64,000 bases of DNA, from NCBI RefSeq assembly GCF_918698155.1, contig NZ_CAKKLX010000002.1, positions 1 through 64,000 of the forward strand, read 5' to 3'. A model generated the notes under the pieces. The model ran no database searches and was not told where the DNA came from. It saw only the letters and a list, made by a program, of their open reading frames with translations. Both the position numbers and the translations under genes were made by a program. Below, piece by piece: positions 45,320-60,900 of this stretch. The number at the start of each line of letters is the position of its first letter. Position 1 is the first letter of the stretch. Source of the DNA: Roseomonas sp. CECT 9278. Its GTDB lineage: Bacteria; Pseudomonadota; Alphaproteobacteria; Acetobacterales; Acetobacteraceae.

Positions 45320-46555
45320 TCAGTCCTCGATCGCCTGGTAGGCCAGCATGTTGACCAGCCGCCGGTAGCGCAGCCGCATCTCGCCCGGTGCATGGGCCAT
45401 CAGCACCACCGCCAGGCGTTCCGCCGGGTCCACCCAGAAGAAGGTGCCGAACACGCCGGACCAGCCGAAGGCGCCCGGCGCGCCCATGAAGGCCGACCCG
45501 CCCGGGTTGCGGCGCACCGCCACCGTCAGCCCGAAGCCGTAGCCGGCCAGGCCGGGGTCCATGCGGTCCGGCCCGCCCTCGATCCCCTGCAGGTGGTCCG
45601 AGCCCATCCAGCGCACCGTCGCCGGCGAGAGCACGCGCGCGCCCCCCAGCGTGCCGCCGCCGCGCAGCATCTCGGCGAAGCGCAGGTAGTCGGCGGCGGT
45701 CGAGACCAGCCCCGCGCCGCCCACCTCCAGCCGCGGCGGGCCGTCGGGCGCGGCCACCGATTGCGGCTTGCCGGTCAGCGGGCAGGTCGGCAGCGCCGTG
45801 GCGAAGCGCGCCAGCCCGCCCTCGGGCAGCACGTACCCGGTCTCGGTCATCCCCAGCGGGTCGAAGATCCGCTGCCGCATCAGCGTGCCCAGCGACGCCC
45901 CGCCCGCCGCGCCCGCGACCAGCCCGAGCACATCGGTCGAGAAGCCGTAGTCCCAGGCCTCGCCCGGATGGTGGCGCAGCGGGGTGGCGGCCAGCGCGGC
46001 CGCGAGCGACGCCGCATCATGGTCGCGCGCCACGGTCAGCGAGGTGCCCGGATGCGCCGCATGCACCGCCGTGGCGCCGAAGCCGCCATAGACGAAGCCG
46101 GTGGTGTGGCGCGCCGCGTCCTGCACCGTCATCGGCCGGCGCTGCGGCTCCAGGTCCAGCGGCCCTTCGCCCGACAGCATCGCGGGCGTGGCCTTCGCCA
46201 CCTGCATCGACATCAGCGGCGGCACATGGGCGCCGACCGGGTCGGACAGCAGCAACCGGCCTTCCTCGACCAGGCTCAACGCCGCCACGCCGCAGACCGG
46301 CTTGGTCATGGATGCGATGGCAAACAGCGCATCGGGGCGCATCGGCACGCGGGCTTCGGGATCGAGGAAGCCGACCGCCTCCAGGTGGACCAGCCGGCCG
46401 TCGCGCGCGATGGCGACCACGCCGCCGGGGAAGCGGCCTTCATCGACCTCGCGCTGCAAGGCCGGGCGGATGCGCGCGAGCCTGGCGGAGGACATGCCCA
46501 CGCTCTCGGGCTTCGTGGGCGCAAGCGGTGCGATATCGGCCTGGATCGTGTCCAT
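45320..46555 (-). CDS. Serine hydrolase, beta-lactamase/esterase EstB type
   Basis: 411 residues. SxxK motif is SMTK in FAIASMTKPVCGVAAL, the Tyr element is YGFSTDVLGLV, and a long RVPMRPDALF stretch precedes. It has no signal peptide. Probably an esterase. The ATG at 46555 overlaps the metallo-hydrolase stop (TGATG), so the two are translated together; a GTG one codon earlier is less likely. Confidence 0.9.
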   Translation of the reverse strand: MDTIQADIAPLAPTKPESVGMSSARLARIRPALQREVDEGRFPGGVVAIARDGRLVHLEAVGFLDPEARVPMRPDALFAIASMTKPVCGVAALSLVEEGRLLLSDPVGAHVPPLMSMQVAKATPAMLSGEGPLDLEPQRRPMTVQDAARHTTGFVYGGFGATAVHAAHPGTSLTVARDHDAASLAAALAATPLRHHPGEAWDYGFSTDVLGLVAGAAGGASLGTLMRQRIFDPLGMTETGYVLPEGGLARFATALPTCPLTGKPQSVAAPDGPPRLEVGGAGLVSTAADYLRFAEMLRGGGTLGGARVLSPATVRWMGSDHLQGIEGGPDRMDPGLAGYGFGLTVAVRRNPGGSAFMGAPGAFGWSGVFGTFFWVDPAERLAVVLMAHAPGEMRLRYRRLVNMLAYQAIED

Positions 46556-47196
46556 CACGCGGCTCCTTCGCCGGCATAGGGGTTGCTGCGGCGTTCGTCG
46601 CCAAACGTCGATCCCGGCCCGTGGCCGCAGATGAACTGGATGTCGTCGCCCAGCGGGAACAGCTTGGTGCGGATCGCCGAGATCAGCGCCTGCGTGTCGC
46701 CATAGGGAAAGTCGGTGCGCCCGACCGAGCCCTGGAACAGCACATCCCCCACCAGCGCGATGCCCAGCGCCACGTTCACGAACACCACATGCCCCGGCGT
46801 GTGCCCCGGGCAGTGCAACACGGAAAAATCCTGCCCGGCGATCTCGACGCTGTCGCCCTCGTTCAGCCAGCGGTCCGGCGTCACGGCGCGGCAGGCCATG
46901 CCGTATTTCGCGCCCTGTTCCGGCAGGCTGTCGAGCAGGAAGGCATCGGCGCGGTGCGGCCCCTCGATCGGCACGCCCAGCGCGCGCGCCAGTTCCGTCG
47001 CCGCGCCGGCATGGTCCAGGTGCCCATGCGTGAGCAGGATGCGCTGCACCTGCACCCCGGCCTGCTGGATCGCGTCCTGGATGCGTTCGGCGTCGCCGCC
47101 GGGGTCGACCACCACGCCCTGCTTCGTCGCCTGGTCCCAGACCAGCGTGCAGTTCTGCTGGAACGGCGTTACGAGAATTATAGTGGCTTGTAGCAT
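46555..47196 (-). CDS. MBL-fold metallo-hydrolase with element-supplied 5' end
   Basis: 213 residues, glyoxalase II-like metallo-beta-lactamase fold. Zinc-binding motif THGHLDHAG, later His in CPGHTPGHVV, Asp in ALVGDVLFQGSVGRTDFPYGD and His in FICGHGPGS. The first nine codons (MLQATIILV) are AT-rich and lie inside the integrated element. Host sequence resumes at TPFQQNCT. The original first 15 codons are stranded at 57190-57234. The reading frame is intact, so the protein is probably still made, but its promoter is now in the element. Confidence 0.92.
   Translation of the reverse strand: MLQATIILVTPFQQNCTLVWDQATKQGVVVDPGGDAERIQDAIQQAGVQVQRILLTHGHLDHAGAATELARALGVPIEGPHRADAFLLDSLPEQGAKYGMACRAVTPDRWLNEGDSVEIAGQDFSVLHCPGHTPGHVVFVNVALGIALVGDVLFQGSVGRTDFPYGDTQALISAIRTKLFPLGDDIQFICGHGPGSTFGDERRSNPYAGEGAA
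47155..47169. mobile_element. Left attachment core
   Basis: CTGCTGGAACGGCGT, identical to 57190-57204. On the minus strand it encodes TPFQQ of the metallo-hydrolase. Host sequence lies to the left, element sequence to the right. Confidence 0.9.
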
Positions 47197-47222
47197 AACG
47201 GTTTCCGGGCTGTTATGGGGGC

Positions 47223-47232
47223 GGCTATGCAC
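47223..47232 (+). repeat. Possible integrase arm site, left
   Basis: GGCTATGCAC, found again at 57070-57079 near the other end in the same orientation. Both are followed by an AGCAC- or GGCAC-like motif. It may be an arm-type integrase site. Confidence 0.35.
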
Positions 47233-47242
47233 GGCTTAGGCA

Positions 47243-47701
47243 CTAAAGCAACCTCAGCCGCCCTGGGAGCATCTGATCCATCCGCATGTAAGGTTCAAAC
47301 ATCGGGACCATCGCCGTGAACTGTTTCTGCAATCTGTCCCGAAGGTTCTGTAGGTCTACCTCTTTAGGCGGTTGCTCGTCTGATTTAACGATGCCATTCA
47401 TTCTGGCAATATAATCAGTAAGAATCTTGCACTCCTCAAATAGATCGTCGCCGAACAAAAATCGTATTTTTGCGCCGTTCTGAACAACAAGTGCTAGAGC
47501 CTCAAGATGATCTTCAAAGGTTGCTTTGTGAACAATTATTTGAAGCTGAGCAAACGCATCCATGCGACGATCAAACAGGTCCTGCACAAATTTCTGCCGC
47601 GACGTCTGCCATTGCCCCCATGCGATGGCGGCGGCCAGCAGCGCGATGGCGGGCGTCGCGAGCGCCTGTAGGTAGGACACCCAGAGGGGAACTTGGCTCA
47701 T
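47243..47701 (-). CDS. Membrane-anchored unknown protein (element cargo)
   Basis: 152 residues. One N-terminal membrane helix (LQALATPAIALLAAAIAWGQW) is followed by a charged helical cytoplasmic domain (QTSRQKFVQDLFDRRMDAFAQLQ). This layout recurs in unknown bacterial membrane proteins. It has lower GC than host genes. It lies at the left edge, 46 bases upstream of the metallo-hydrolase start and in the same direction, so it may drive that operon by read-through. Confidence 0.72.
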   Translation of the reverse strand: MSQVPLWVSYLQALATPAIALLAAAIAWGQWQTSRQKFVQDLFDRRMDAFAQLQIIVHKATFEDHLEALALVVQNGAKIRFLFGDDLFEECKILTDYIARMNGIVKSDEQPPKEVDLQNLRDRLQKQFTAMVPMFEPYMRMDQMLPGRLRLL

Positions 47702-48109
47702 CCGCAGCGACCGGTCCTTGCTGATGCGAGATCAGCATATGCGGTGCGAAGCGCATATCCCAGGCTAGGCCATGCACGGGGTTGAGGACAGGGAGGCGTG
47801 CGCTACGCGACCCCACGCGCCGTGATCCGCTGGCCACAGCACCCCTACCTTCTCGCAGTCAAGGTCTGTACGACGTTGATGCGAGAGGAGCGGCTGCGTG
47901 GGAAGGGGCTGGTCGCGGAGGTCCGCAAGACGCCCCCGGCCACAGACATCGTTGCGGGCATCCGGGTGTCCCGCAACAGGCTGGCGCAGCGCGGCGACAA
48001 GGGCGTGCGATAGCCCTCGGCGCTGTCGTCGTTGAATGATCTGTTGAGTTGCTGGTAGGCTTGTTTCTCTGTGGCCGGATGGGCTGGCCATCCGCCGAAT
48101 GCTGGTTCA
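47702..48109. other. 408-base stretch with no convincing gene
   Basis: A GC-rich block (about 47765-48015) lies between AT-rich genes. It is open in several frames, including an ATG at 47798 giving 71 residues, but none has a ribosome site or family likeness. It may be a gene remnant. Confidence 0.4.
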
Positions 48110-48463
48110 ATGGATCAAACAAGATTAATTGCTTTGCTTTTTGTGGAAGCCAAGAACGCATCTTGGTATAGTCTACTCTTATCTACAGGTATATTCTGTC
48201 TGATAATATGGTTATTTTTCCATAAGATGCAATGGGCTCAAATAAGCAAAATAAAAGCTCTGGCATTTTCCGCATTAGTTTTTATTTCGGTTATTGTCGG
48301 AAACATAGCCTTTTCATTATTATACCTCCAGATTATCTATGGAACACTCGAGATTCATCCGGTTTTTGATCGTGCATTCATCAATAATATCTTAAATAAA
48401 TCGGGGTTCGGCGCGCTTGTATGCGGCTTCGTATTTTATCTTTTCGCCCGACGCTCTCGTTGA
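48110..48463 (+). CDS. AT-rich polytopic membrane protein, unknown
   Basis: 117 residues with three strongly hydrophobic segments (SLLLSTGIFCLIIWLFF, AFSALVFISVIVGNIAFSLLYL, GFGALVCGFVFYLFA) and a basic end RRSR. Codons are AT-rich, unlike both host and the rest of the element, showing separate origin. It is one of few plus-strand genes here. The ATG at 48110 is chosen to skip a GC-rich upstream frame. Function unknown; cargo at an element edge may be defence-related, which is speculation. Confidence 0.68.
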   Translation: MDQTRLIALLFVEAKNASWYSLLLSTGIFCLIIWLFFHKMQWAQISKIKALAFSALVFISVIVGNIAFSLLYLQIIYGTLEIHPVFDRAFINNILNKSGFGALVCGFVFYLFARRSR

Positions 48464-48491
48464 TTTTGGGGGTTACACCTCGTCTGATAAC

Positions 48492-48689
48492 ATGATTTGC
48501 GGTCTCATAGGCTGGGCCGCTGATTTACTGGTGCAAATCGCACGGAGGGATTTCCCCTCTGCGGCGGCACGGTGCCGCGCAATTAGCGGACACTACTCGG
48601 CGTCGCCCGAAACACAGGCTATCGCGGAGAAGGTGCGGCTGCGTCGGGCAGTCGGGCTGCCGTATCCGCGGGTCATTCGGCGAGGATAG
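48492..48689 (+). CDS. Possible small protein
   Basis: 65 residues from the ATG at 48492 (MICGLIGWAADLLVQIARR). It has a basic C-terminal half (EKVRLRRAVGLPYPRVIRRG). No ribosome site is clear. It lies 28 bases past the AT-rich membrane gene. Support is weak. Confidence 0.35.
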   Translation: MICGLIGWAADLLVQIARRDFPSAAARCRAISGHYSASPETQAIAEKVRLRRAVGLPYPRVIRRG

Positions 48690-48700
48690 CGCGGGCGACT

Positions 48701-49180
48701 CTAATACGCCCGAATCACACGGCGGCGCTTGCGGTTGAGGCTGAACGTCGCGGCGCCGCCATTTTCCAGGGCCTGAATCGTCAACAGTCCATTTTTAACC
48801 AGCATACTCAGGATATACTGAGCGGACGAGAACGGGACGGCCGCCTTCTTTGCGAAGTCTACTCCGCTAAATGACGTCTGGTTGCGACAGAGTTCCTTGA
48901 CCACAGGCGCATACTGCGACTGCCACGTCTGCGCGGCTCGCTCGTGGGGGCCAGTCGGCAGCAGCCAGAAGCCCAGCGAGTAGGGGCTGACCCGGAACCG
49001 GCCATCGCAAAGCGGGTGGGCGAACAGGATGTGCCGGGCCTCGTCGTAGGAAATGTCCAGAACGTCCACGGCTTGGGATATCGAAAACGGCCTTCGTCCA
49101 AACGCCGAGTAGAGGGCGCTGATGCGAGCGTCCCCAGCGGGTTCGGGGAGGGCTTTGAAGAGCGGGACTACGTTGCTCAT
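48701..49180 (-). CDS. Possible winged-helix protein of the element
   Basis: 159 residues. Stretches such as PFSISQAVDVLDISYDEARHILF and SGVDFAKKAAVPFSSAQYILSMLVKNGLLTIQ look like two helix-turn-helix or winged-helix units, suggesting DNA binding. No named family is recognised. It is the last gene of the minus-strand string, starting one base after the stop at 49182. Confidence 0.65.
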   Translation of the reverse strand: MSNVVPLFKALPEPAGDARISALYSAFGRRPFSISQAVDVLDISYDEARHILFAHPLCDGRFRVSPYSLGFWLLPTGPHERAAQTWQSQYAPVVKELCRNQTSFSGVDFAKKAAVPFSSAQYILSMLVKNGLLTIQALENGGAATFSLNRKRRRVIRAY

Positions 49181-49181
49181 T

Positions 49182-49406
49182 TCAATGCACCGTTGTTCGG
49201 GTGAATGTCACGTAGGGGGGCCGAATCAACAGGTCGTCGAGGCGTCCCCCCTGCCATGCCTCGGTGACTTCCTGCACCTCGCGCCAGGACAGCGGCACGA
49301 GAATGACCCGGCCATCGAGTAGCACCACCACCAGCCCCTGACGGCTGGCGGTCAGCGTGTCGAGGGCGGCCATGTCGCCGTTGCCGAGGTCCACCGGGAT
49401 GGTCAC
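49182..49406 (-). CDS. Small unknown protein, GTG start
   Basis: 74 residues, TIPVDLGNGDMAALDTLTAS near the start, then LLDGRVILVPLSWREVQEVTEAW. The GTG at 49406 overlaps the preceding stop (GTGA). A longer frame upstream lies over another gene. Mostly beta at first, then helical; function unknown. Confidence 0.65.
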   Translation of the reverse strand: MTIPVDLGNGDMAALDTLTASRQGLVVVLLDGRVILVPLSWREVQEVTEAWQGGRLDDLLIRPPYVTFTRTTVH

Positions 49407-49855
49407 CGGCCGGACAGCAGCCCGCGGATCGCCCGGAGTTCCAGCAGCACGTCCTCCAGGATTTCCGCCTGGGCGCGCTTGGCAGGAGGCATCGGGCTGA
49501 ACCGAATGGGCTCGGGGGCCGGTTCGTCCTCGGCATCCGGCGCGAGGGCCAGAAAGTCCTCCCTCGACCACGGCGCCAGATTGGGGCCGAGAATCTCGAT
49601 CGTCAGGGCGCCGGTATGGCGATTGGTGACACACGACACGCGGAACAGGCGACCTTCCAGCAGCACGCCGACCGTGTCGGGCATCACGGGGTCGAGTTCC
49701 ATCCGCACCCCCCGAGCCTGCATGGGGCCGAGCAGTTCGCGGAGTTGATCCTGCGCTTCCTGGGGGAGGCCGGCGAAGGCCGGGATCTGCGTGGTGACGG
49801 GGCGTTGACTGGCGAGGTCCTTGGCGACAACTCGCAACGCTTCGAGGCGGTTCAT
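49403..49855 (-). CDS. Unknown element protein
   Basis: 150 residues. An amphipathic N-terminal half (EALRVVAKDLASQRPVTTQI), a beta-type middle (VGVLLEGRLFRVSCVTN) and a C-terminal helix (RAQAEILEDVLLELRAIRGLL). The ATG at 49855 overlaps the upstream stop (ATGA). No family recognised. Confidence 0.68.
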   Translation of the reverse strand: MNRLEALRVVAKDLASQRPVTTQIPAFAGLPQEAQDQLRELLGPMQARGVRMELDPVMPDTVGVLLEGRLFRVSCVTNRHTGALTIEILGPNLAPWSREDFLALAPDAEDEPAPEPIRFSPMPPAKRAQAEILEDVLLELRAIRGLLSGR

Positions 49856-50166
49856 GCGACTTTCCTTCGGCGGTTGGCGTGATGTTCGGGGAGAGCCTCC
49901 GCGGCGGCCTGGGCGTGGGCGGCCTGGTCCTTCGCTTCGGCGGCTGCCGTGCGGTCGGCCCAGGAATCCATCGCGGCCTGGACCTGCTCGTATCCGCTCA
50001 GGTTGCAGGTATCGCAGGACAGGGCCTTGATCGCGTTGTCGGGCTTGGCCAGCGTCAGCGTCAGGGAGAACGCCCCACACGCCGGGCAACTCATGCGGAT
50101 GGTGGAGTTGTCGCCGCTCCACCAGGTCATTGGCCACGATGGCGGAACGTGAAGTGTGGGGGTCAT
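49852..50166 (-). CDS. Small zinc-ribbon-like protein
   Basis: 104 residues with paired cysteine knuckles CPAC and CDTC about 30 residues apart, which could bind zinc, then an Ala/Glu helix and a basic end (HHANRRRKVA). It resembles phage and plasmid zinc-ribbon proteins in size and form. The ATG at 50166 overlaps the upstream stop. Confidence 0.65.
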   Translation of the reverse strand: MTPTLHVPPSWPMTWWSGDNSTIRMSCPACGAFSLTLTLAKPDNAIKALSCDTCNLSGYEQVQAAMDSWADRTAAAEAKDQAAHAQAAAEALPEHHANRRRKVA

Positions 50167-50366
50167 CCCTGGGGCCTCAGCGTTCGGGTGAAGGTGTCCC
50201 ACGGGCGGTCTCCTTGGGGCGTTCGGGCCACGACCTCGTCATCCACCACGATCAGCCGGACTGCCTCCCCCCGAACCCGGAACTCGTCGTTCAGGTCGGG
50301 CACGTATCCCAGCCGGCACATCATGTTGAAGGCGTAGGAGAGGCTGACGGGCTTCCGGGGTGTCAC
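50163..50366 (-). CDS. Small unknown element protein
   Basis: 67 residues, beta-rich (EFRVRGEAVRLIVVDDEVVA). Overlaps its neighbours on both sides by 4 bases (ATGA). No family recognised. Confidence 0.65.
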   Translation of the reverse strand: MTPRKPVSLSYAFNMMCRLGYVPDLNDEFRVRGEAVRLIVVDDEVVARTPQGDRPWDTFTRTLRPQG

Positions 50367-50584
50367 TGGATCGCGTCGTAGCGAGCGCGCACGGCGGCGG
50401 GCGTCCGGGCTGCGAGTGCCTGCTGCTCGCGCATCTGCCGGATGGCGTCCTTGATCGCGAACAGTTCGGCCTTCAGGGCGGCGATCTCGTTGTGCAGGGG
50501 CGCGGCGGCCTTCGTGGCCTCGATCTTCGCGATCACCGCGGTTCCTCGGATGATGGCGTCGAATTCGGATTTGCTGACACGCAT
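50363..50584 (-). CDS. Small coiled-coil protein, first gene of the string
   Basis: 73 residues, almost wholly helical with a likely coiled coil (APLHNEIAALKAELFAIKD). The ATG at 50584 has AGGAGG upstream and is the only gene of the string with a strong ribosome site, so it leads the operon. Confidence 0.68.
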   Translation of the reverse strand: MRVSKSEFDAIIRGTAVIAKIEATKAAAPLHNEIAALKAELFAIKDAIRQMREQQALAARTPAAVRARYDAIQ

Positions 50585-50595
50585 GGCCCGGGGCC

Positions 50596-50622
50596 CTCCT
50601 GCTTGTTGAAGTAATGCAGGAG
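50596..50622 (-). promoter_or_regulatory. Inverted repeat covering the leader ribosome site
   Basis: CTCCTGC (50596-50602) and its reverse complement GCAGGAG (50616-50622). The left arm covers the AGGAGG ribosome site of the gene starting at 50584. The right arm lies near the expected transcript start. It could be a repressor operator or an RNA hairpin hiding the ribosome site. Confidence 0.5.
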
Positions 50623-50624
50623 AA

Positions 50625-50652
50625 ATTCTACCACAGGTGCAAGTAAAGACAA
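50625..50652 (-). promoter_or_regulatory. Candidate promoter of the small-gene string
   Basis: On the minus strand TTGTCT (50652-50647), a 16-base spacer, then TAGAAT (50630-50625), a fair sigma-70 promoter. It lies about 40 bases upstream of the first gene of the coupled string. Confidence 0.5.
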
Positions 50653-50668
50653 GATTCAGTTTAGGGCG

Positions 50669-50875
50669 TTACTTCCACGGCCAGCCTATTTCTGCGGTTT
50701 GTCTGCCGCGCAACTCGACGATCCAACCCCCCGCGTGGGATGCGGCTCGCTCGGCGTCGCGCTTTCGGGTAAAGACCTTGGCGGGTCCACGATCTATCAG
50801 GACTACTCGGCGGGTTCGGCGAACTACTACGAGGTCGCCTACCTGAACGTAGAATGTTCGGCGGACGCGGGGCAT
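50669..50875 (-). CDS. Small basic unknown protein
   Basis: 68 residues, very basic, beta-type start (RRTFYVQVGDLVVVRR), then TRKRDAERAASHAGGWIVEL, which looks like real protein, perhaps a nucleic-acid binder. No family recognised. Confidence 0.55.
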   Translation of the reverse strand: MPRVRRTFYVQVGDLVVVRRTRRVVLIDRGPAKVFTRKRDAERAASHAGGWIVELRGRQTAEIGWPWK

Positions 50876-51569
50876 GGGGGCATGGTAGCACGGCCCGGCG
50901 CGCGGTGCCGGCGCGGTCGCGGCAGGTTGCGAGCGATCCGGGGGGCGTCCGGGGCGGCCAAGGGACCCTCAGGGCCAAACAAAACTTTGCGCCCTGGGCC
51001 GTGTCGGTTTCGGCCTTCAAGCCAACTTTTGTCCACTCCCCCGCCCGTGGCCAGCGCGCCGGCATTGCGAGCGGACGAATACAGTTTCTCCCTCTATATG
51101 TAGAAAGACGGATTGCGACAGGTCCCACAAGATTTAGGATTGGCTGGAAATCGGGAGGCAGCCAAACAGACTAATCCATGTAAAGACAGGTATTCCTCAC
51201 AAGCCTGACAGTCCAGCCAGCCATCTCCTACGGCCGCATTAATCTGCGAACCGCTAGGGAACATTCGTCTCTACGCAGGGAGGACCGATGCCTTGGCATG
51301 TTTCAGTTCCCACGTGCGCGATGCGAGCGGTGCCGGCGCGGTCGGTGCGCCAGGGTGCAGGGGCAGGGGGCATGGCCGGCCAGCGCGGCGCGTGCCGTGT
51401 GCCGGTAGCCGCATCTGAGCCAGTGCGCCAGGGTGGCCGGTGCCATAGGGCGGGCGGGCGCCAGGGGCGGTCCAGTGGGCGCCTATGCGCGGCGCGGCGT
51501 GGCCATGGCCGGCCGACGGGCGGGCGGTGGTCTAGGCTGGCAGGGCGTGGCAATGATCAGGGCATGTTC
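50876..51569. other. Long stretch without a convincing gene
   Basis: About 690 bases. It is mixed: AT-rich around 51060-51290 and very GC-rich around 51310-51540. A minus-strand frame of 65 residues (50839-51036) overlaps the preceding gene and lacks support. The motif GGTGCCGGCGCGGTCG occurs at about 50895 and 51329. Confidence 0.4.
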
Positions 51570-51598
51570 AAAGGGGGCAAGGCTTTCGCCCTACCCCC
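51570..51598 (-). terminator. Rho-independent terminator with GAAA tetraloop
   Basis: On the minus strand an 11-bp stem (two G-T pairs) with a GAAA loop, arms 51598-51588 and 51583-51573, followed by TTT (51572-51570). It ends the two-gene unit at 52062-51624. Confidence 0.75.
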
Positions 51599-51623
51599 TC
51601 TGCCCCCGGCATAGTCCCCCGGC

Positions 51624-51749
51624 CTAGGTGTCGGCCAGGGCTTTCGCGTATGCCGCGTCGGCTGCGGCCTTGTCGGCTGTGACCAGCACGGTTTCCCAAT
51701 GATCCCGTGCGGTCTGCACCAGCACCAGGAACATGCGGCCGCGCCGCAC
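51624..51749 (-). CDS. 41-residue unknown protein
   Basis: GTG at 51749 lies 4 bases past the preceding stop; an ATG five codons later gives 36 residues. A hydrophobic start (MFLVLVQTARDHWETVLV) and an Ala-rich helix (DKAAADAAYAKALAD). It is too short to assign, but its position between a coupled gene and a terminator supports it. Confidence 0.5.
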   Translation of the reverse strand: MRRGRMFLVLVQTARDHWETVLVTADKAAADAAYAKALADT

Positions 51750-51753
51750 GATC

Positions 51754-52062
51754 CTAACCAAGGCGCACCAGTCCGCGCTCGACCATGAACTTCAGCATGC
51801 CGCCGACCGGGTTTTTGTAGCCGCCATCCTTCAGGGCTTGGGCCAGCTCGCCCCGCGTCTTGGACGCCAGCACCAGCGGCCAGCGTTCGGCGCGGGTGCC
51901 CCGAAGTTTCGGGTCCTGCACCAGAACCGTGATCTTCTGGCCGTCCAGGTTCGGCTTGGCAGTCTTGGTCTTGGCGGGTGCCTCGGCGGCGGGTGCCTCG
52001 GTCGCAGGCTTGGCAGCCTTGGCCGGCTTGGCGGACTTGGTGGTGGCGGTGGTGTCGGTCAT
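51754..52062 (-). CDS. Unknown protein with Ala-Lys-rich tail and folded C-domain
   Basis: 102 residues. The first 45 are low-complexity Thr/Lys/Ala/Pro (histone-H1-like). The rest (ITVLVQDPKLRGTRAERW, then ELAQALKDGGYKNPVGGMLKF) appears folded, with a likely helix-turn-helix. It may bind DNA. AAGGA lies about 9 bases before the ATG. Confidence 0.6.
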   Translation of the reverse strand: MTDTTATTKSAKPAKAAKPATEAPAAEAPAKTKTAKPNLDGQKITVLVQDPKLRGTRAERWPLVLASKTRGELAQALKDGGYKNPVGGMLKFMVERGLVRLG

Positions 52063-52545
52063 GGGCTTTGTCCTTGCAGCGGTGCCCCCCATGGGCGCCG
52101 TGCAACCGTTCTGCCGGGAGGTGCCGTTCCGTAGCCAGAACAATTCCGGGCAAGAGTCCGGAAACATTGTGTCGCAACAATATCGGTGGTGAACCGAATA
52201 AGATTAAGAGTTAGGGAATACTGGTTTTCTGCCCAAGTATGCGGTTTGGAATTATGATTTTTTCTGTAGAATTTAGGAATGATCTGGTTTGGCCGGTTGA
52301 GAAAGCGGCGTCACAAAGGTGGAAATGGCCCCCCCCACTCCCGGCTGGGGCAGCCCTCACCCCCTAAGCGCGTCACACATTAGGCTTCGCCTGAATTAGG
52401 AGAGCCCCCACAGTAACCCCCCCCTAAAAGGGGTTGCCTTATGGCTACTGTGTGCCGCAAAAGCCATCTACCCGTTAGCACTATATACCCTTTGACTATT
52501 CTTAGTGTGGGTGGTGTGGGGTATAGTAAGAAAGCGGCCCGGCAA
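52063..52545. other. 483-base non-coding AT-rich region, possible replication origin
   Basis: No convincing gene. It is much richer in A/T than the surroundings, with short inverted repeats (AACCCC ... GGGGTT at about 52416-52434; ACTATA ... TATAGT at about 52480-52528) and runs of C. It abuts the 3' end of the Toprim-VapE gene. An origin or regulatory region would fit. Confidence 0.45.
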
Positions 52546-54936
52546 CTAGTTTACGACGGCCCACGGCCCACGGCTCCGGCGCACGAGGCGGGGGGTTGGC
52601 GTTGGGGGCGTGGGGTCCGCGGCATCCGCAGCAGACGCGGCCTGCGCTCCCGCAAGGGTGGCGGTCGGCTGCCACACAACGAAGGACGGCTTGCTGATGT
52701 CCATGTCGCGGTGAATCGTCAAAAGCCGACCGACGATATCCCCGCCCCCCGGCTTCTCACCGCGATACCACCCCCTCCACTTCGCACCCTTATCAATCGC
52801 CGCGAGCTCAAAGGCGTTGTCCGGCCGTTGGAACCCGAGCGCACGCATGGCGTCACCGATCTCCTTGTCTGGGCACGACCTCCCATGGCCGATTAGGAAT
52901 TTCTGCACGTCGGCCGACCGGATCACGGCGTCGGGGAATGCTTCCAGAAATGGCTCCAGCGTGATGGCGTAGATGCTCAGCCGCGTGTGCGCCGCCAGCG
53001 TCGCCTCCATCTCGGCCCACAACTCGGTCGGCACCGCGAGTTCCGGCCGGGCACCCCCTGCCGCCTGGATGATCGCCTTCGCAGTGTCCCTCGCCTCGGC
53101 CCAAATCTGCTCCCGATTAGCGGTAAGGAAGGTGAAGTCCCCCATGCGCTGCACCGGCAGGGGGAGGAATCGCCGACTGCCGACCTGCGACCGTATGAAG
53201 TCCATGCCGTTGACAGTGCCGACGTTGATAAACCCGCGAGGCATGTTCAGCGTCGCGCGGCCATAGGCCATGCGCCCGGTGTCTTCCGTGCGGGTGAGGA
53301 ACGCCTTGTGCGACTCCCAATCCGACTTGTTGAACCCCTCCATCTCGGCCCATTCAACCACCGTCTTGCCGAGCGTTTGCTCCAAGACCTGGCGCGGGTC
53401 GTCCACGTTCAGCCGCGCATCGGTGAACCTCTCCGGCCCCCCGGCAGCGATGGCGCGCGCGAAGGATGACTTCCGGTAGCCGGACGCACCAACGAGCACA
53501 TTCATCACGTCCACCTTGGCGCCGGGATACAAGATGCGAAGCGCCTGCCCGAGGAACAGCGCCGCCGAACCCCACTCATTCAGGGGGGTTGCCGCCATGC
53601 CGAAGACCTCCTGGAGCACCTTGGCCATGCGCGGCGTGCCATCCCAGGCTGCGCGCGCCTCTAGCCAGTCTTGCATGGAGTGCTGCCGGGCAGCGTGACC
53701 GAGGGCGGCCAGCCCCGAATGGATCATCGGCGGCGAGAAGGTGACGCCTTCGCGCAGGGCGATAAACGCGATCAGGGGCGACAGGAGTTCGTCGCGCAGA
53801 GCGACGGCACCCCCCATGCCGTGAAGTGGGGCCTGGGGAATGGCAACGATCGGCGATTGTGGATTCGCCGCCTCAAGAAACAGATTCATGTCGAACAGGT
53901 CCAGGCGCGCGGTCAGGCCGATGCGCTGGAACGCGATCATCGCGTTGACAATGTCGCTGGGCTTGATGCCTTCGCGGTTGAAGCGGTAGCCGGCGGTAGC
54001 CGCGTGCCGGATTGAATCGGAGACGCCGCTTGCGACGATCGAACGCTTAGGCCGAGCCGCCTTGATGAACCCTTTCCATTCAACCTGAATGGAGCCGAGT
54101 TTGACGCCGCTAGCCTTGGCGAGATCGCGCAGGCGAAGGTCAATCTCCCCGGCAGACAGCGACCGCCATTGCGAGAACAGGGTGAGACGCTCGATCCACC
54201 CCTGGAGGATGGGCACGATGTCGCTCTTTTCGCGCCACACGTCGTTGGGATCGTGACCCGACATGGGCGAGGCGAAGATATGCACGATCTTACCGGCCAG
54301 CACGGCACGCATCGCCAGTTTCTGCGCTGAGTCCAAACCGGCCGGATCATTGTCCGCGCAGATACGCAGGTCCCTCAGGCCGGGGGGAAGATCTATCTCC
54401 TCCATGCCGCGCCGGCCGCAGCACGCCCAGCAGGACGAGCCCGGAAAGAGACGGACGACGGACATGGCGTCTTCCAGCCCCTCGGCGACATACAGCACGC
54501 CGTCCTTCGGCTGGCCGAGGCAGATCGCCGCCCCGTATGCTTCGCCAACCGTGATGCGGTCGTTGCGAGTGCCGACTTTGACCTTCTCCCCCTGCTTGTT
54601 GACGGCTGTCCGCTGAATGGCGGCGATCAACCCGTCCTTGTCCAGCAGGGGCGCCACCAGCCAGAAACCCGAATAGTCGAGGTCAAGGTCTAGTGCCGGA
54701 TCAAGGTCATCGCACTGAACCTTGAGTAGATGCCGCTCATTTTCCAGCAGGGGCAGCAATCCACGGCTCGCAAGATAGATGCCGACCGGATGATCCTCAG
54801 GAACGGGGGAGATACCTTTCTTGTAGAGCGCCCGCGCCCGCTTGACGGTTGTCCCTAGGTCCTGCGAGCGTTCGTAGTCGCTGCCATCTAATGCTTGCGC
54901 GTCGGGATTTTCGCTGCTATAATTATCGTCAGACAT
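52546..54936 (-). CDS. Toprim-VapE replication protein (primase/helicase type)
   Basis: 796 residues. The N-part has a Toprim domain (YVAEGLEDAMSVVRLFPG ... LRDLRICADNDPAGLDSAQ) as in DnaG-type primases. The C-part has a VirE/VapE P-loop domain with Walker A VGASGYRKSSFARAI (about 480-495), followed by VVEWAEMEGFNKSDWESHK and the stretch NVGTVNGMDFIRSQVGSRR. Such proteins start replication of phages, satellites and islands. The start overlaps the AlpA-like gene by 8 bases. Confidence 0.88.
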   Translation of the reverse strand: MSDDNYSSENPDAQALDGSDYERSQDLGTTVKRARALYKKGISPVPEDHPVGIYLASRGLLPLLENERHLLKVQCDDLDPALDLDLDYSGFWLVAPLLDKDGLIAAIQRTAVNKQGEKVKVGTRNDRITVGEAYGAAICLGQPKDGVLYVAEGLEDAMSVVRLFPGSSCWACCGRRGMEEIDLPPGLRDLRICADNDPAGLDSAQKLAMRAVLAGKIVHIFASPMSGHDPNDVWREKSDIVPILQGWIERLTLFSQWRSLSAGEIDLRLRDLAKASGVKLGSIQVEWKGFIKAARPKRSIVASGVSDSIRHAATAGYRFNREGIKPSDIVNAMIAFQRIGLTARLDLFDMNLFLEAANPQSPIVAIPQAPLHGMGGAVALRDELLSPLIAFIALREGVTFSPPMIHSGLAALGHAARQHSMQDWLEARAAWDGTPRMAKVLQEVFGMAATPLNEWGSAALFLGQALRILYPGAKVDVMNVLVGASGYRKSSFARAIAAGGPERFTDARLNVDDPRQVLEQTLGKTVVEWAEMEGFNKSDWESHKAFLTRTEDTGRMAYGRATLNMPRGFINVGTVNGMDFIRSQVGSRRFLPLPVQRMGDFTFLTANREQIWAEARDTAKAIIQAAGGARPELAVPTELWAEMEATLAAHTRLSIYAITLEPFLEAFPDAVIRSADVQKFLIGHGRSCPDKEIGDAMRALGFQRPDNAFELAAIDKGAKWRGWYRGEKPGGGDIVGRLLTIHRDMDISKPSFVVWQPTATLAGAQAASAADAADPTPPTPTPRLVRRSRGPWAVVN

Positions 54937-55261
54937 CTTGTTGATCCTTGATGTTCTGGATTGCCGAGTTGAGGCGGCGGTCTACTGGCCTATGTCTTCC
55001 GGGGATGAGTTCCTGCGCCCGCTCCTGATCACCCAGGGGCGGGCGCGAATGTTTTCGAGGCTTGATGGCGTGTCGCAGCGCCCACGTCTCCCTCCATTCC
55101 AAGTATTTCTCGATCTGGGCTTTGGACCAGACGTAGCGGTTGTTGAGCATCCGGGGACGCGGCAGTTTCCCATTCTTGACTTGCCAGTGTATCGTCTGAC
55201 GAGACCGGAAAATACCGAGGGCCATCAGATCGTCACTGATCACGACTTCGGGCAGGTCCAT
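54929..55261 (-). CDS. AlpA/MerR-like helix-turn-helix protein
   Basis: 110 residues. The N-half (LMALGIFRSRQTIHWQVKNG ... NRYVWSKAQIEKYLEWRE) is an AlpA-like DNA-binding unit. AlpA proteins activate excision or early genes in satellites and prophages. GGAG lies 8 bases before the ATG at 55261, and the region upstream is AT-rich and promoter-like. It is translated into the Toprim-VapE gene. Confidence 0.75.
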   Translation of the reverse strand: MDLPEVVISDDLMALGIFRSRQTIHWQVKNGKLPRPRMLNNRYVWSKAQIEKYLEWRETWALRHAIKPRKHSRPPLGDQERAQELIPGRHRPVDRRLNSAIQNIKDQQDV

Positions 55262-55492
55262 AGAATTACTCCATATGAATACTTAAAGTGTGGCAGGCGC
55301 GTCGCTGACGTGACTAGCCCGCATGTTTCTGTATGCGAGCGATGTGCTTTCTGAGTAACAGGGCTTGCCAGGGGGCCTATTCTGAGCCCTCTGCGGTGCC
55401 GGCCGGTGCATGGGTGCGGGCGCATGGCCAGGGCGGCTCCCTTGGCGCTACCGGGCAAGGCCGAATGGGCATTCGGGCAGGGGGCGCTGGGC

Positions 55493-55573
55493 CTATCGCC
55501 AAAGGCTGCCGTGGGTCAGGGCCAGAAAGCCGATCAACGACAGCCCAAGGCCGATCCACAGGCGGGCGATCAC
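55493..55573 (-). CDS. 26-residue membrane peptide
   Basis: IARLWIGLGLSLIGFLALTH after the start codon: a single membrane helix with a short basic end. GTG at 55573 overlaps the preceding stop (GTGA). No other support exists beyond coupling and the clear hydrophobic pattern. Small phage membrane peptides and type I toxins have this form. Confidence 0.45.
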   Translation of the reverse strand: MIARLWIGLGLSLIGFLALTHGSLWR

Positions 55574-55821
55574 AGCGCCACCCCCTGGCCGAGGATCACC
55601 CGGCGACGATTGATGGTGCGGCGCTCGTGCTTCCGCACCCAGGCACGCAAGTCGCCCATGCGGTAGCGGACCCAGCGACCGTTCTTGATGTATTTCGGGC
55701 CGATGCCTTGGACAGCCCACTCCTCAAGGAGTTGGTGCCGGCAATCCAGGTAGGTGGCGGCTTCTTTGCGACGGAGGAGAGTTTCGTCAGGCCAAGCGGC
55801 GACTTCTGCGCGCAGACTCAT
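55570..55821 (-). CDS. HTH_17 (excisionase-like) protein
   Basis: 83 residues with a helix-turn-helix of excisionase/MerR-like type (RRKEAATYLDCRHQLLEEWA ... RWVRYRMGDLRAWVRKH). Placed just after integrase, it is a candidate recombination directionality factor. Confidence 0.75.
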   Translation of the reverse strand: MSLRAEVAAWPDETLLRRKEAATYLDCRHQLLEEWAVQGIGPKYIKNGRWVRYRMGDLRAWVRKHERRTINRRRVILGQGVAL

Positions 55822-55994
55822 AGCGGGGGTCCCGAATATCGGGTTGTCCCCCGTCTAGAGCCTTGGGCTCCGCCGCACGCGGGCTCCTGGCGGGGAGCCT
55901 CACTCCTTGCCGGGAGTGTGCGGGTCTTTCTCGGGTGGGCTTGACCGGTTCAAACCTCGCGGTGCCGGGGCCGCTGCTAGGGTAGCCCAGGGAG

Positions 55995-57068
55995 TTATTC
56001 CGCCGCAAGTCTCGCTTGCAGCCGGGCTACCACTCTCTCCATGGCGGGCCGCATGTCGCTAGCCTTGGCGACATATCCGAACGTCACCCCCGGCACCTTG
56101 TGATTCACCAGCAGGGCGATCTCGAACGGGGTCAGGCCAGCCTCAACCGCGGTGGATATGAACACGCGACGCAGCGAGTGGGGGGACCAGCGAAGGTCGC
56201 CGAACCGCTTGACCTCGCCGGGGCTGAGCCTTGCGTTGAACAGCGGGAACACGCGCTGCCCCCGGCTATGCGGCCGGGCTTGCCCAAGGAGCTCAACATG
56301 GGCGGCGGTTAGCGGCAGAGTGAACGCCTTGGAGGATCCACCTTTGGGATTGGGCACGAACAGCGTGTCCCCCCGGATCGCGTCCCATCTCATGGTCTTG
56401 ACGTCGCCGCTGCGAAGGCCGGTCAACAACATGAAGCGGAGCATGGTGCGGCGAAGCGGATTGACGACGGCCGTGTCCAGCCCCGTGCTCCATTCAGGAA
56501 GCCGTGCCAGCAAGGCCGATTCATCCACCGGCCGCTGAGCGTGCCAGTTGATCGCGATGGTGGGGCAGGCGGGCAGATGCGGGTCGAGTTTCTGCGCGGC
56601 GGACCACCACGCCCGAAACCCCTTCGCCCCGTTGTTCGCTGCCTTGGGGCCTCGGTCGCGTGTGACCTTCTCATGCCGACGCTGCATGTCCACGCGGCTG
56701 ATCTTCGCTAGGTCGGTGTCCTGCCAGTCGCCGAAGTGCAGGGTGAGATACTCGCGGTGATTCCGCAGCGTGGATGCGGCGCGCGGCTTCTGCTTCTTCC
56801 AGAGGCCGTATGCGGCCTCCACGGTCAGCCCCATGGGGCGCCCCGTGTCGTCGGCGGCCAGGAGTTCCAGCGTGCGCTGGCGAGCGGCGGCGGGGCTGAG
56901 AGCGGGCCAGCCTCCCACGCGGACCCAGCGGTTGCGACGCTTGAGCATCCACGTCTTGGTCGCCTTGCCGACAACCAGGTAGAGGCCGCGCTGGCGCTCG
57001 TCTTGGATGCGGATTTGCGCCTGTCCTTCGGGCGGATTCAGCGCGGCTATCACGCGTTCGGTCAGCAT
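55995..57068 (-). CDS. Tyrosine-recombinase integrase
   Basis: 357 residues. An N-terminal arm-binding domain (GLYLVVGKATKTWMLKRR), a core-binding SAM-like domain, and the catalytic domain with Arg in LTGLRSGDVKTMRW (about 217), HSLRR (about 300) and the Tyr in VTFGYVAK (about 331). It would carry out integration at the 15-bp core. It starts 122 bases from the right core. Confidence 0.93.
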   Translation of the reverse strand: MLTERVIAALNPPEGQAQIRIQDERQRGLYLVVGKATKTWMLKRRNRWVRVGGWPALSPAAARQRTLELLAADDTGRPMGLTVEAAYGLWKKQKPRAASTLRNHREYLTLHFGDWQDTDLAKISRVDMQRRHEKVTRDRGPKAANNGAKGFRAWWSAAQKLDPHLPACPTIAINWHAQRPVDESALLARLPEWSTGLDTAVVNPLRRTMLRFMLLTGLRSGDVKTMRWDAIRGDTLFVPNPKGGSSKAFTLPLTAAHVELLGQARPHSRGQRVFPLFNARLSPGEVKRFGDLRWSPHSLRRVFISTAVEAGLTPFEIALLVNHKVPGVTFGYVAKASDMRPAMERVVARLQARLAAE

Positions 57069-57069
57069 T

Positions 57070-57079
57070 GGCTATGCAC
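57070..57079 (+). repeat. Possible integrase arm site, right
   Basis: GGCTATGCAC, identical to 47223-47232 and in the same orientation, just upstream of the integrase start. Confidence 0.35.
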
Positions 57080-57189
57080 CCTCTAAGCACGGGCTGCACC
57101 ATGCCACGCCACACCGGGGAATACCATGAATGGCGGTTTGCCGGGCCTTTCCGGGTCCCCCCGTGCCGACCCAGGCATGGGGTTAACTA

Positions 57190-57204
57190 CTGCTGGAACG
57201 GCGT
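57190..57204. mobile_element. Right attachment core
   Basis: CTGCTGGAACGGCGT, identical to 47155-47169. Element sequence lies to the left, host to the right. Confidence 0.9.
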
Positions 57205-57763: not shown

Positions 57764-57952
57764 CGCCGCGCCATCCTCCGCCCTGCCTCGGGGCGCGCAG
57801 AGTCCGGCCGGCGGCGCGCCCGCGTCAAGCGCCCCGCGGGGCCGGGTGCGGCCGCGCCGCCCCTGCGGGACCACCCGGCAATTTTCGCCGGGCTGTTCAT
57901 TGTTCATTCAACTTCTGCGCGCTTTCCTGCATTGATCGGATCGCAGGACGCG

Positions 57953-60900
57953 ATGACCACCTACGCCTTCACCGATGTCGCCGGCACCAGCCTTGCCTTC
58001 GTGCCGGCCCAGGACCTGCTTGTCCTGCCGTTCGGCGTGCCGGCGGCCGCGCTGCGCTTCGCGGCGTCGGGCAGCGACCTGCTGGTCAGCCTGGGGCCGG
58101 ATTCGGTGCGGCTGCTGGGCATCGGCTTCGGCGGGGCGGGGTTCACGGCCGCCAACCTGGCGACCCAGGATGGCAGCCTGCTGATCCTCGATGGCCCGGC
58201 CGGCAATGTGCGCGTCGGCAGCAGCAGCGGCGACTGGATCGGCGCCGATCGCGGCGGCGACGACCGCATCACCGCCGATGCCGGGGACGACTACATCCAC
58301 GCCGAGGCGGGGCTCAGCCCGCTCGACACCATCGATGGCGGGGCGGGCACGGGGGACCTGCTCTATCTCTCCGGCAGCGTCTCGGTGGTGCTGGGGCCGC
58401 TGACCGTCACCGGGATCGAACGCTTCGAGGTCGGCCCGGGCACCGTCTCGCTGACCCTCGATGCCGCCACCGTCGCGACCGCCACCCTGGCGGCCGGGGC
58501 GGTCTTCACGATCGACGGCACGGCGCAGGGCAGCGGGCAGCGCCTGTGGGTCGATGGCCGCGCGGTGACCGCCGGCGGCATGGCGCTGCTGGCCGGCGGC
58601 GGGGATGATTCGCTGGCCGGCGGCAGCGGCGGCGACACGCTGCTGGGCGCCGCCGGGGACGACACGCTGGATGGCGCCGGGGGCGACGACACGCTGTCGG
58701 GCGGCGGTGGCATCGACCTGCTGACCGGCGGGCTGGGCGACGACCTGTTCCTGTTCGACGTGGCGGGCCTGGCCAACAGCCCGCCGGCGACGCCCGACCT
58801 GGTGGCGGATTTCGCCGGCGGCGGCGTGGCTGGGGGCGACCGCATCGGCCTGCCCGGCGTCGCCGCCATCGGCCTGGGGCTGACCTTCCATGTCGGCGCC
58901 GCCGACTTCGTCTTCGAAGGCTATGCCGAATCGGGCGTGCAGCTGCCCGCCGCGCGGATCGGCGACGGCTTCGCCGACGTCATGTGGCGCCTGGTCGAGG
59001 GCGAGGCCTGGCGCTTCGAGCTCTGGGCCGACCTCAACGACGATGGCCGCTTCAGCCCCGGCGACCTGTTCCTGCGGATCGCGGTGGCGGCGGGGGACAC
59101 CGCCACCACCCTGGCGCCGGGCGACTTCGTGGCGGGCTTCGCCGGGCTGGTGGGCAGCGCGGGCAATGATTCCTTCGCCGGGCTCGGCGGCACCGACGAC
59201 CAGCTCTGGGGCGAGGGCGGCAACGACGTGCTGTCGGGCGGCGACGGCGTCGATGTGCTCGAAGGCGGCCTCGGCAACGACACGCTGCGCGGCGACGACC
59301 TGGCGGACCAGCTGCGCGGCGGGCCGGGCTCCGACTGGCTCGAGGGCGGCGAGGGCTGGGACACGCTCTATGCCTTCGACAACCTGTCCCCCGAGACCGA
59401 GGCGCCGGAGGACCGCAACCTCCTCGATGGCGCCGCCGGGCGGGACATGCTGTTCGGCGGCGCCGGCCTGGACACGCTGCTGGGCGGGGAGGGCGACGAC
59501 CTGCTCTGGGGCGGCGAGGGCAACGACAACCTGGCCGGCGGCGAGGGGATCGACCTGCTCTATGGGCTGGAGGGCGACGACGTCCTCGATGGCGGCGGCG
59601 CGGAGGACACGCTGCTGGGCGGCCTCGGCGCCGATACCTTCACCGGCGGCGCCGGCGCGGACCTGTTCATCATCGACCTGTCGACCGGCGGCCAGGCCGA
59701 GGCCACCGGCGACGCCCCGGACTGGATCACCGATTTCGACCCGGCGCAGGGCGACGTGCTGTCGCTCGCGCTGGTCGGCGGGCTGGTCGGCGGCGCCTTC
59801 GGCCCCGGGCCGCTCGCCTGGCGCGGCGCGCTGGCGCCGCGCGACCTGGCCCTGGGCGTGGGCCTCGGCACGGTCCTGCCGGGGTCCGACCTCGGGCCGG
59901 GCTACTACCAGTCCTGGTTCCTGCCGGCGGTCTCGGGTGGGCTCGCGGCGGGCGGCTGGTTCATCGTCGACCTCGACCAGGACCTGGTGATCGGCGCGGA
60001 TGACGCGATCATCCGCATCGGCGGGCCGGCCGCCCCGATCGCGCTGGCGCCCGAGCACTTCGCCGAGGGCACCTTCCGCCTGCGCGTCGGCACCGCCGGC
60101 GCCGACGTGCTGCTGGCCGCCGCCGACGGGCAGGAGATGTTCGGCCTGGCCGGCAATGACCGCCTGACCGGGCGCAACGCCGCCGACCGGCTGGTCGGCG
60201 GGGAGGGCGACGACACGCTGCTGGGCGCCGGCGGGATCGACCAGCTCTGGGGCGGCGCGGGCAATGACAGCCTGGACGGCGGCGCCGCCGACGACGAGCT
60301 GTTCGTCGAGGGCCCGGGCATCGAGGAGCAGGACGGCATCTTCGCCCGCAACACCCTGGCCGGCGGCGATGGCAATGACAGCCTGTGGGGCGCCGATGGG
60401 CGCGAATCCCTCGATGGCGGGCTGGGCGCCGACCGCCTGCATGGCGGCGTCGGCCTCGATACGCTGCTGGGCGGGGAGGGCGACGACACCATCATCGCGG
60501 GCGATGGCGCCGACCTGGTGGTGGGCGGGGCGGGCGCCGATTCGATCGATGCCGCTTCCGGCGACGACACGGTCGACTACGACCCGGCGGACAGCCTGGT
60601 CGATGGCGGGGACGACAACGACCTGCTGGTGCTGGCGGCGGCCGCCAGCATCGCGCTGGAAAGCAGCATCGACCAGGTGGCCGGCGGCGGCATCACCCGC
60701 GGCTTCGAGGGGGTCGATGCCTCGGCCGTGGCGGTGGCGATCACCCTGGCGGGGTCGACCGCGCGCAACCGGCTGGTGGGCGGCATCGGCGGCGACTGGA
60801 TCGAGGGGCGCGACAACAACGACACGCTGGAGGGCGGCGGCGGCGCCGACACCATCGATGGCGGGGCGGGCGACGACCTGGTGCAGGGCGGGGTGGGCGG

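Follow-up and report, generated by a model that had tools for sequence, protein, structure and literature searches.

What kind of mobile element carries an integrase, regulators and a replication protein of its own, followed by tiny coupled genes, and has no virion or conjugation genes? The question is raised by an island at positions 47155-57204 of a 64,000-nt stretch of the Roseomonas sp. CECT 9278 genome (contig NZ_CAKKLX010000002.1, positions 1 to 64,000; the whole stretch is called the window below), in which a first-pass annotation had seen a possible new family of satellites resembling phage-inducible chromosomal islands (PICIs). Judging from its sequence, the 10-kb island is a discrete integrated element with the boundaries proposed there, and a new family of integrative elements with a PICI-like design is supported. 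We read the island as an integrative element that is site-specific and has its own replicon, no recognised transfer apparatus and the build of a Gram-negative PICI, most likely a phage satellite, and we put the probability of this reading at about one in two. Phage satellite is thus the favoured reading of several that are weighed below.

The limits of the island were given by a direct-repeat search. A 33-nt direct repeat, 79% identical and exact over its first 15 nt (CTGCTGGAACGGCGT), starts at 47155 and again at 57190, which makes the unit 10,035 bp long between repeat starts. The insertion lies inside the 5' end of a gene for an MBL-fold hydrolase (46555..47196, minus strand; PF00753), within which the left core (attL, 47155..47169, CTGCTGGAACGGCGT) is found. 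The right core (attR, 57190..57204), identical to attL over its 15 nt, adjoins the native N-terminus of this hydrolase, MSIAAAIIPVTPFQQ, left behind at the right end of the island as the first 15 native codons of the gene, which run into a stop; the island re-supplies the gene with an N-terminus and a new start (MLQATIILVTPFQQ; MLQATIILVTPFQQN). At both empty sites inspected, in the congeners R. fluvialis (L032) and G309 (L033), the flanking open reading frame (ORF) is followed by an unbroken MBL-fold start, ATGAGCATCGCC..ACGCCCTTCCAGCAGAAC, with the intact N-terminus MSIAAAIIPVTPFQQN. The left and right window flanks, aligned separately to L032 and L033, were consistent with insertion at the repeat, and the MBL-fold gene was found in 34/34 genomes of the genus. 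The host and R. fluvialis both belong to this genus; in the NCBI taxonomy, R. fluvialis stands in the Roseomonadaceae, order Acetobacterales. Furthermore, G+C content (GC) is 0.626 in the island and 0.729 and 0.738 in its flanks (10-11 points lower inside), and the rest of the host genome shares a single 33-nt stretch (91%) with the island DNA, inside the integrase gene. Integration into the 5' end of a protein gene, with replacement of its start by island sequence, is also described for dusA-associated islands (PMC4482086), which have another target gene and share only the integrase among themselves.

Family searches then covered the coding content: Pfam was run on 19 sequences of the window, representing 16 ORFs (one of 56 aa besides the 15 listed; three were scanned with two starts), PHROGs on the 15 listed ORFs and 12 from R. 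fluvialis, and NCBIfam and PADLOC on ten ORFs each. Fourteen of the 15 listed ORFs lie on the minus strand with the integrase gene first, and their frames are intact; the one-direction layout claimed by the first-pass annotation therefore holds for these 14, with 48071-48463 (plus strand) opposed. The right-end module consists of a tyrosine integrase (357 aa, 55995..57068, minus strand; PF13356, PF00589 and phrog_1), two AlpA-like helix-turn-helix (HTH) proteins and a Toprim-VapE primase-helicase (796 aa, 52546..54936, minus strand; PF13362 [Toprim_3] and PF05272 [VapE]). The first AlpA-like protein, a candidate excisionase or regulator (83 aa, 55570..55821, minus strand), matched the HTH_17 family PF12728 at 27.0 bits, which equals the cut-off, and phrog_66 at E 5e-4; the second (110 aa, 54929..55261, minus strand) reached 22.3 bits with PF12728, under the cut-off, and is 68% identical over 54 aa to its R. 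fluvialis copy. Neither protein was seen to match the model of the AlpA family itself. The sole PDB sequence match of VapE was 7pds, described as 'Similar to D. nodosus vapE', which we take to be the helicase of a staphylococcal phage-inducible island (SaPI). Apart from these four (integrase, two HTH_17 proteins and Toprim-VapE), 11 of the 15 listed ORFs had no Pfam match above the cut-off, and no relaxase, terminase, portal or capsid family rose above chance in the Pfam and PHROGs scans. The integrase-regulator-VapE module, the lack of recognisable virion and conjugation genes and the predominance of genes without a known family had all been proposed beforehand and were borne out.

A search for the same gene set elsewhere, which the annotation had suggested as a check, led to a second member in R. 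fluvialis. This relative of about 10.5 kb is bounded by repeat starts at 4596 and 15062 of L004 (minus-strand reading), 10,466 bp apart, and its 33-nt repeat, with two mismatches, has an aldehyde dehydrogenase gene (PF00171) as its target, at the 3' end. Ten related gene pairs join the two elements: VapE, 60% identical, and nine smaller proteins, namely the second AlpA-like protein and the 102-, 68-, 73-, 67-, 104-, 150-, 74- and 159-aa proteins, each exceeding the highest score of 300 shuffles (z 9.4-40.7; for the 102-aa protein a longer start, giving 137 aa, was used). The genes follow one another in the same order, apart from a swap of the last two and an additional copy in R. fluvialis that is akin to the 67-aa protein. 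The integrases are only distantly related (22% identity). Homology of the first AlpA pair is not claimed because its score of 44 falls under the shuffle maximum of 46, and one R. fluvialis protein matched a head-protease family at chance level (E 0.07). Between its two AlpA genes, the R. fluvialis element carries an oppositely oriented AbiTii gene (PF18864, 122 bits; L004 11761-12678, plus strand); this position may be a cargo slot. These comparisons support a small family in which integrase, target and cargo appear to be exchanged while the small genes stay together.

The conserved small genes occupy the part of the island to the left of vapE. After 483 non-coding nt comes a 102-aa protein (51754..52062, minus strand) with a low-complexity N-terminus and a conserved KITVLV..LVRL domain, 44% identical to its R. 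fluvialis counterpart and weakly similar, under the cut-off, to DUF7157. It is overlapped by a doubtful 45-aa ORF with a TTG start (51624..51761, minus strand), called from the sequence only and lacking an R. fluvialis counterpart. Beyond 748 nt without a convincing gene lie a 68-aa basic protein (50669..50875; 43% identical in R. fluvialis) and then, opened by a 73-aa protein (50363..50584; 30%, z 11), a run of six genes with gaps of -4, -4, -4, -4 and +1 nt, which agrees with the tiny coupled genes of the first-pass annotation. The run continues, like the 68-aa gene on the minus strand, with a 67-aa protein (50163..50366; 41%, the second R. fluvialis copy being related at z 8.3), a 104-aa protein (49852..50166; 42%), a 150-aa protein of no known family (49403..49855; 40%, with two metagenomic relatives), a 74-aa protein with a GTG start (49182..49406; 30%, z 9.4) and a 159-aa protein (48701..49180; 36%, with two further relatives). 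The 104-aa protein resembles a zinc ribbon, its four cysteines being invariant between the two elements, and is weakly Lar-like: TIGR03655 gave 23.1 of the 39.6 bits required for the window protein and PF14354 16.3 of 28.6 bits for that of R. fluvialis, so that a restriction-alleviation role in both elements is a weak lead and not an identification. Judged by eye, the 159-aa protein possibly consists of two winged-helix-like halves; PDB sequence searches with two of the small proteins returned chance-level matches only. Upstream of the run, at 50652-50625 (minus strand), there is a promoter-like sequence with TG before the second hexamer (9/12), and the number of such sites is not above that in shuffles.

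A candidate replication origin was found directly 3' of vapE. Iterons of the form TAGTGTGGGK span 52406..52521, with two direct copies at 52503-52521 (0 and 1 mismatch) and one inverted copy at 52406-52415 (1 mismatch), and the R. fluvialis element has three exact copies in the same arrangement. Three blocks are conserved here between the elements: the iteron pair (E 1e-6), the inverted iteron (E 0.002) and a hairpin (E 8e-9). The iterons are proposed as the origin because of their position and conservation, not their count, which is weak in the window (4 matches versus 1.99 expected; 13/100 shuffles reach as many) and in L004 is reached by 3/200 shuffles. In Gram-negative PICIs, iteron sets flank an AT-rich stretch; here GC is 0.50 between the iterons, and AT-richness peaks next to them (52165..52320, GC 0.417, including the lowest-GC 86-nt windows of 48700-57100). 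The hairpin block (52070..52107, minus strand; 42 columns) stands just upstream of the 102-aa gene and takes in its Shine-Dalgarno-like AAGGA. It folds alike in both elements, each arm being two matching bases longer in R. fluvialis, with unexceptional folding energy (z -1.6 and -0.9). By eye, the C-terminal tail of the metagenomic sequence P0006 resembles read-through of the iterons. Rfam returned a single sub-threshold match (18.9 bits versus 39). The stretch of about 750 nt at 50870-51620 was also considered as a packaging or RNA site and rejected: its conservation is not claimed because the local score against R. fluvialis, 39, only equals the maximum of 200 shuffles (mean 25.8, sd 3.2) and the best BLAST piece is a C-rich 21-mer (E 4e-5).

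The family is rare. At E <= 1e-40, VapE was found in 2/299 family genomes, its own included and the other being R. fluvialis, and at E <= 1e-80 a class-wide sample gave 1/385, its own, with R. fluvialis not among the matches listed. The VapE alignment matched 19/35 genomes within the genus, two of them at full length and the other 17 in the VapE or Toprim part only. Among 5.8 billion proteins, of which the best 7999 candidates were scored, there were seven close VapE sequences including the query, the others 48-61% identical, and three additional matches covering the helicase region only. The 150-aa protein occurred in 2/397 family genomes and the integrase, at E <= 1e-60, in 1/299, its own; scans of genome contigs gave no match. 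Three further partial VapE-alignment matches, to the VapE or Toprim part, were seen in the host genome itself (G000; C6:60439-61272, C1:91143-91787 and C1:24132-24557), possibly in other mobile elements. Among the matches listed, the open-licence literature contained nothing on Roseomonas phage satellites, Acetobacteraceae phage-inducible chromosomal islands or this element. The PICI-like design is already known, and what appears to be new is the complement of small genes without known families.

Gram-negative PICIs are similar in size to the island. They are described as unidirectional from int, with the origin immediately 3' of the replication gene, and EcCICFT073 and its relatives share with the island a specific att site, this gene direction, an AlpA-type regulator, a rep gene with its 3' origin (in the island a candidate one) and the lack of a full virion set (PMC6092414). 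Direct repeats were found for both elements and empty sites for that of the window; the unidirectional trait applies to all listed ORFs but one candidate cargo ORF, and that of an AlpA/MerR regulator depends on an HTH_17 match lying exactly at its 27.0-bit cut-off. As for genes exclusive to PICIs, two small proteins are absent from phage and plasmid records and two more from phage records. The island differs in that no phage or plasmid record matches its VapE over the full length, in that no TerS, cos or capsid-morphogenesis gene was recognised and in that its small genes match no known family; the comparison was made by published traits, not gene by gene. SaPIs have in common with it a VapE-type helicase (7pds) and an iteron origin (in the island a candidate) behind VapE, whereas neither a divergent Stl-type regulator nor TerS or capsid genes were found in the island, and the hosts are other ones. 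P4-like satellites carry the capsid and regulation genes sid, psu and delta. Such genes had no match in PHROGs or Pfam among the 15 listed ORFs, and these two databases likewise gave no capsid family of the kind that cf-PICIs bring themselves. PICMIs of the Vibrionaceae resemble the island in their integrase-AlpA-primase core, lack of capsid remodelling genes, four-nucleotide gene overlap and defence cargo; excision and replication are attributed to these three core proteins, IOLG is named as also essential for excision, and virulent helpers are described (PMC10803314). PICMIs differ in adjoining fis, in a DUF3987/DUF5906 primase and, for PICMI115, in a size of 6.1 kb (PMC10803314), none of the first two being found in the island family, which has Toprim_3 and VapE and uses MBL-fold and aldehyde dehydrogenase targets.

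Several results weigh against a phage satellite. The host genome lacks the tailed-phage markers PF03354, PF04860, phrog_2 and PF05065 (terminase, portal, HK97 capsid; each 0/1), searches that were positive in 3, 4, 11 and 4 of 14 named genomes, respectively. Within the element, TerS and capsid-morphogenesis families had no match among the 15 listed ORFs in Pfam and PHROGs, and no cos or pac site was recognised. Comparison of four small proteins and the integrase with 50,697 phage records by tblastn gave no match. Five protein and three DNA-motif scans of IMG/VR found no family member, the conserved hairpin patterns being absent from the latter scans, and the only match was a 34% VapE domain on a 36-kb contig (L005 10001-10621). 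Moreover, relatives of the VapE domain occur on plasmids as much as on phages (954 versus 881 records), none covering 80% of the query. The new PICI-like satellite family of the first-pass annotation thus stands as an integrative-element family of PICI-like design, whereas its satellite nature lacks a helper marker in the host genome and a recognised cos/pac site or TerS.

Since helper markers and phage-record matches are missing and VapE-domain proteins are found on plasmids, some probability falls to a relaxase-less hitchhiker or a bare replicon. The former, a rather unlikely account, would be an integrative mobilisable element with an oriT only, for whose movement a conjugative element would provide relaxase and mating apparatus, and whose copy number VapE would raise after excision. 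It would suit the lack of any phage signature and the 809 of the 954 plasmid records that are typed conjugative, and elements with an oriT and no relaxase are on record (PMC11389934); yet no oriT, for which no search was made, is known in the island, the two small proteins tested are encoded by no plasmid record, two plasmids gave the only matches to the integrase, at 29-36%, and the order AlpA-rep-ori is that of PICIs. An integrative mobilisable element with a relaxase of its own finds no relaxase family in the Pfam scans of the island ORFs. That the island is a selfish integrating replicon without a dedicated transfer route, spread by rare uptake, generalised transduction or gene transfer agents, we consider unlikely. 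Its rarity would agree with this, jumbo phages are reported to transduce genomic islands (PMC12595487), and Acetobacteraceae plasmids such as pGO128 (4.3 kb) and pKNA06 likewise have VapE near recombinase and HTH genes. These plasmids are circular, however, their 'recombinase family protein', presumably of the serine type, is not a tyrosine integrase, and their VapE is 30-33% identical in the helicase region only, across 30-36% of the query; eight conserved small genes, six of them in an overlapping run, would also be heavy baggage for a bare replicon. A decayed prophage, its structural genes lost, is very unlikely. The phage-type integrase and replication genes would fit such an origin, but the minus-strand frames are unbroken and no full phage with this gene set was found in the phage records searched. 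The R. fluvialis relative, with another integrase and target, likewise has no structural genes and keeps the same small genes nearly colinear, which random decay would not be expected to do.

Returning to the phage satellite, integration, excision and self-replication probably follow from the protein families present. An incoming phage, perhaps a virulent one, would induce the AlpA-like proteins, acting as regulators or excisionases; the integrase would excise a circle of 10,035 bp, and VapE would melt the iteron origin and replicate the element. Interaction with the helper would most naturally be sought in the small genes, whose products may handle it, and the DNA of the element would be packaged in helper particles. 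The absence of all four prophage markers from the host genome would suit a virulent helper, as in PICMIs. Cargo such as the AbiTii of the R. fluvialis element might protect the host. More tentatively, and with somewhat less confidence than in the satellite reading as such, we propose a new satellite family of the Alphaproteobacteria, in which Toprim-VapE replication is combined with eight conserved small genes (six in the overlapping run) through which a helper, perhaps virulent, would be hijacked in ways unfamiliar from known satellites, and with exchangeable integrases and defence cargo. Described satellites come mostly from Gammaproteobacteria and Firmicutes; if the reading is true, the PICI-like design would extend to the Roseomonas group, and small proteins that stay constant while integrase, target and cargo are swapped would be direct candidates for helper interaction. 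The single-contig genome of R. fluvialis provides a member in a named species that is open to tests of excision and packaging.

The left end of the island holds two low-GC ORFs, one of them on the opposite strand. The opposed ORF (48071..48463, plus strand, GC 0.40) encodes a hydrophobic protein of 130 aa with no family and a PHROGs match at E 0.09 only, and the other (47243..47701, minus strand) a protein of 152 aa with a hydrophobic N-terminus and no Pfam match above the cut-off; both lack an R. fluvialis counterpart and are candidate cargo. To the left of the target gene, genes of the carotenoid-oxygenase/RPE65 and serine beta-lactamase families follow in a row (43895-45316 and 45323-46558, minus strand). 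Just to the right of the island, 57950-62278 (plus strand) encodes a large protein in which RTX calcium-binding repeats are numerous (20 PF00353 stretches).

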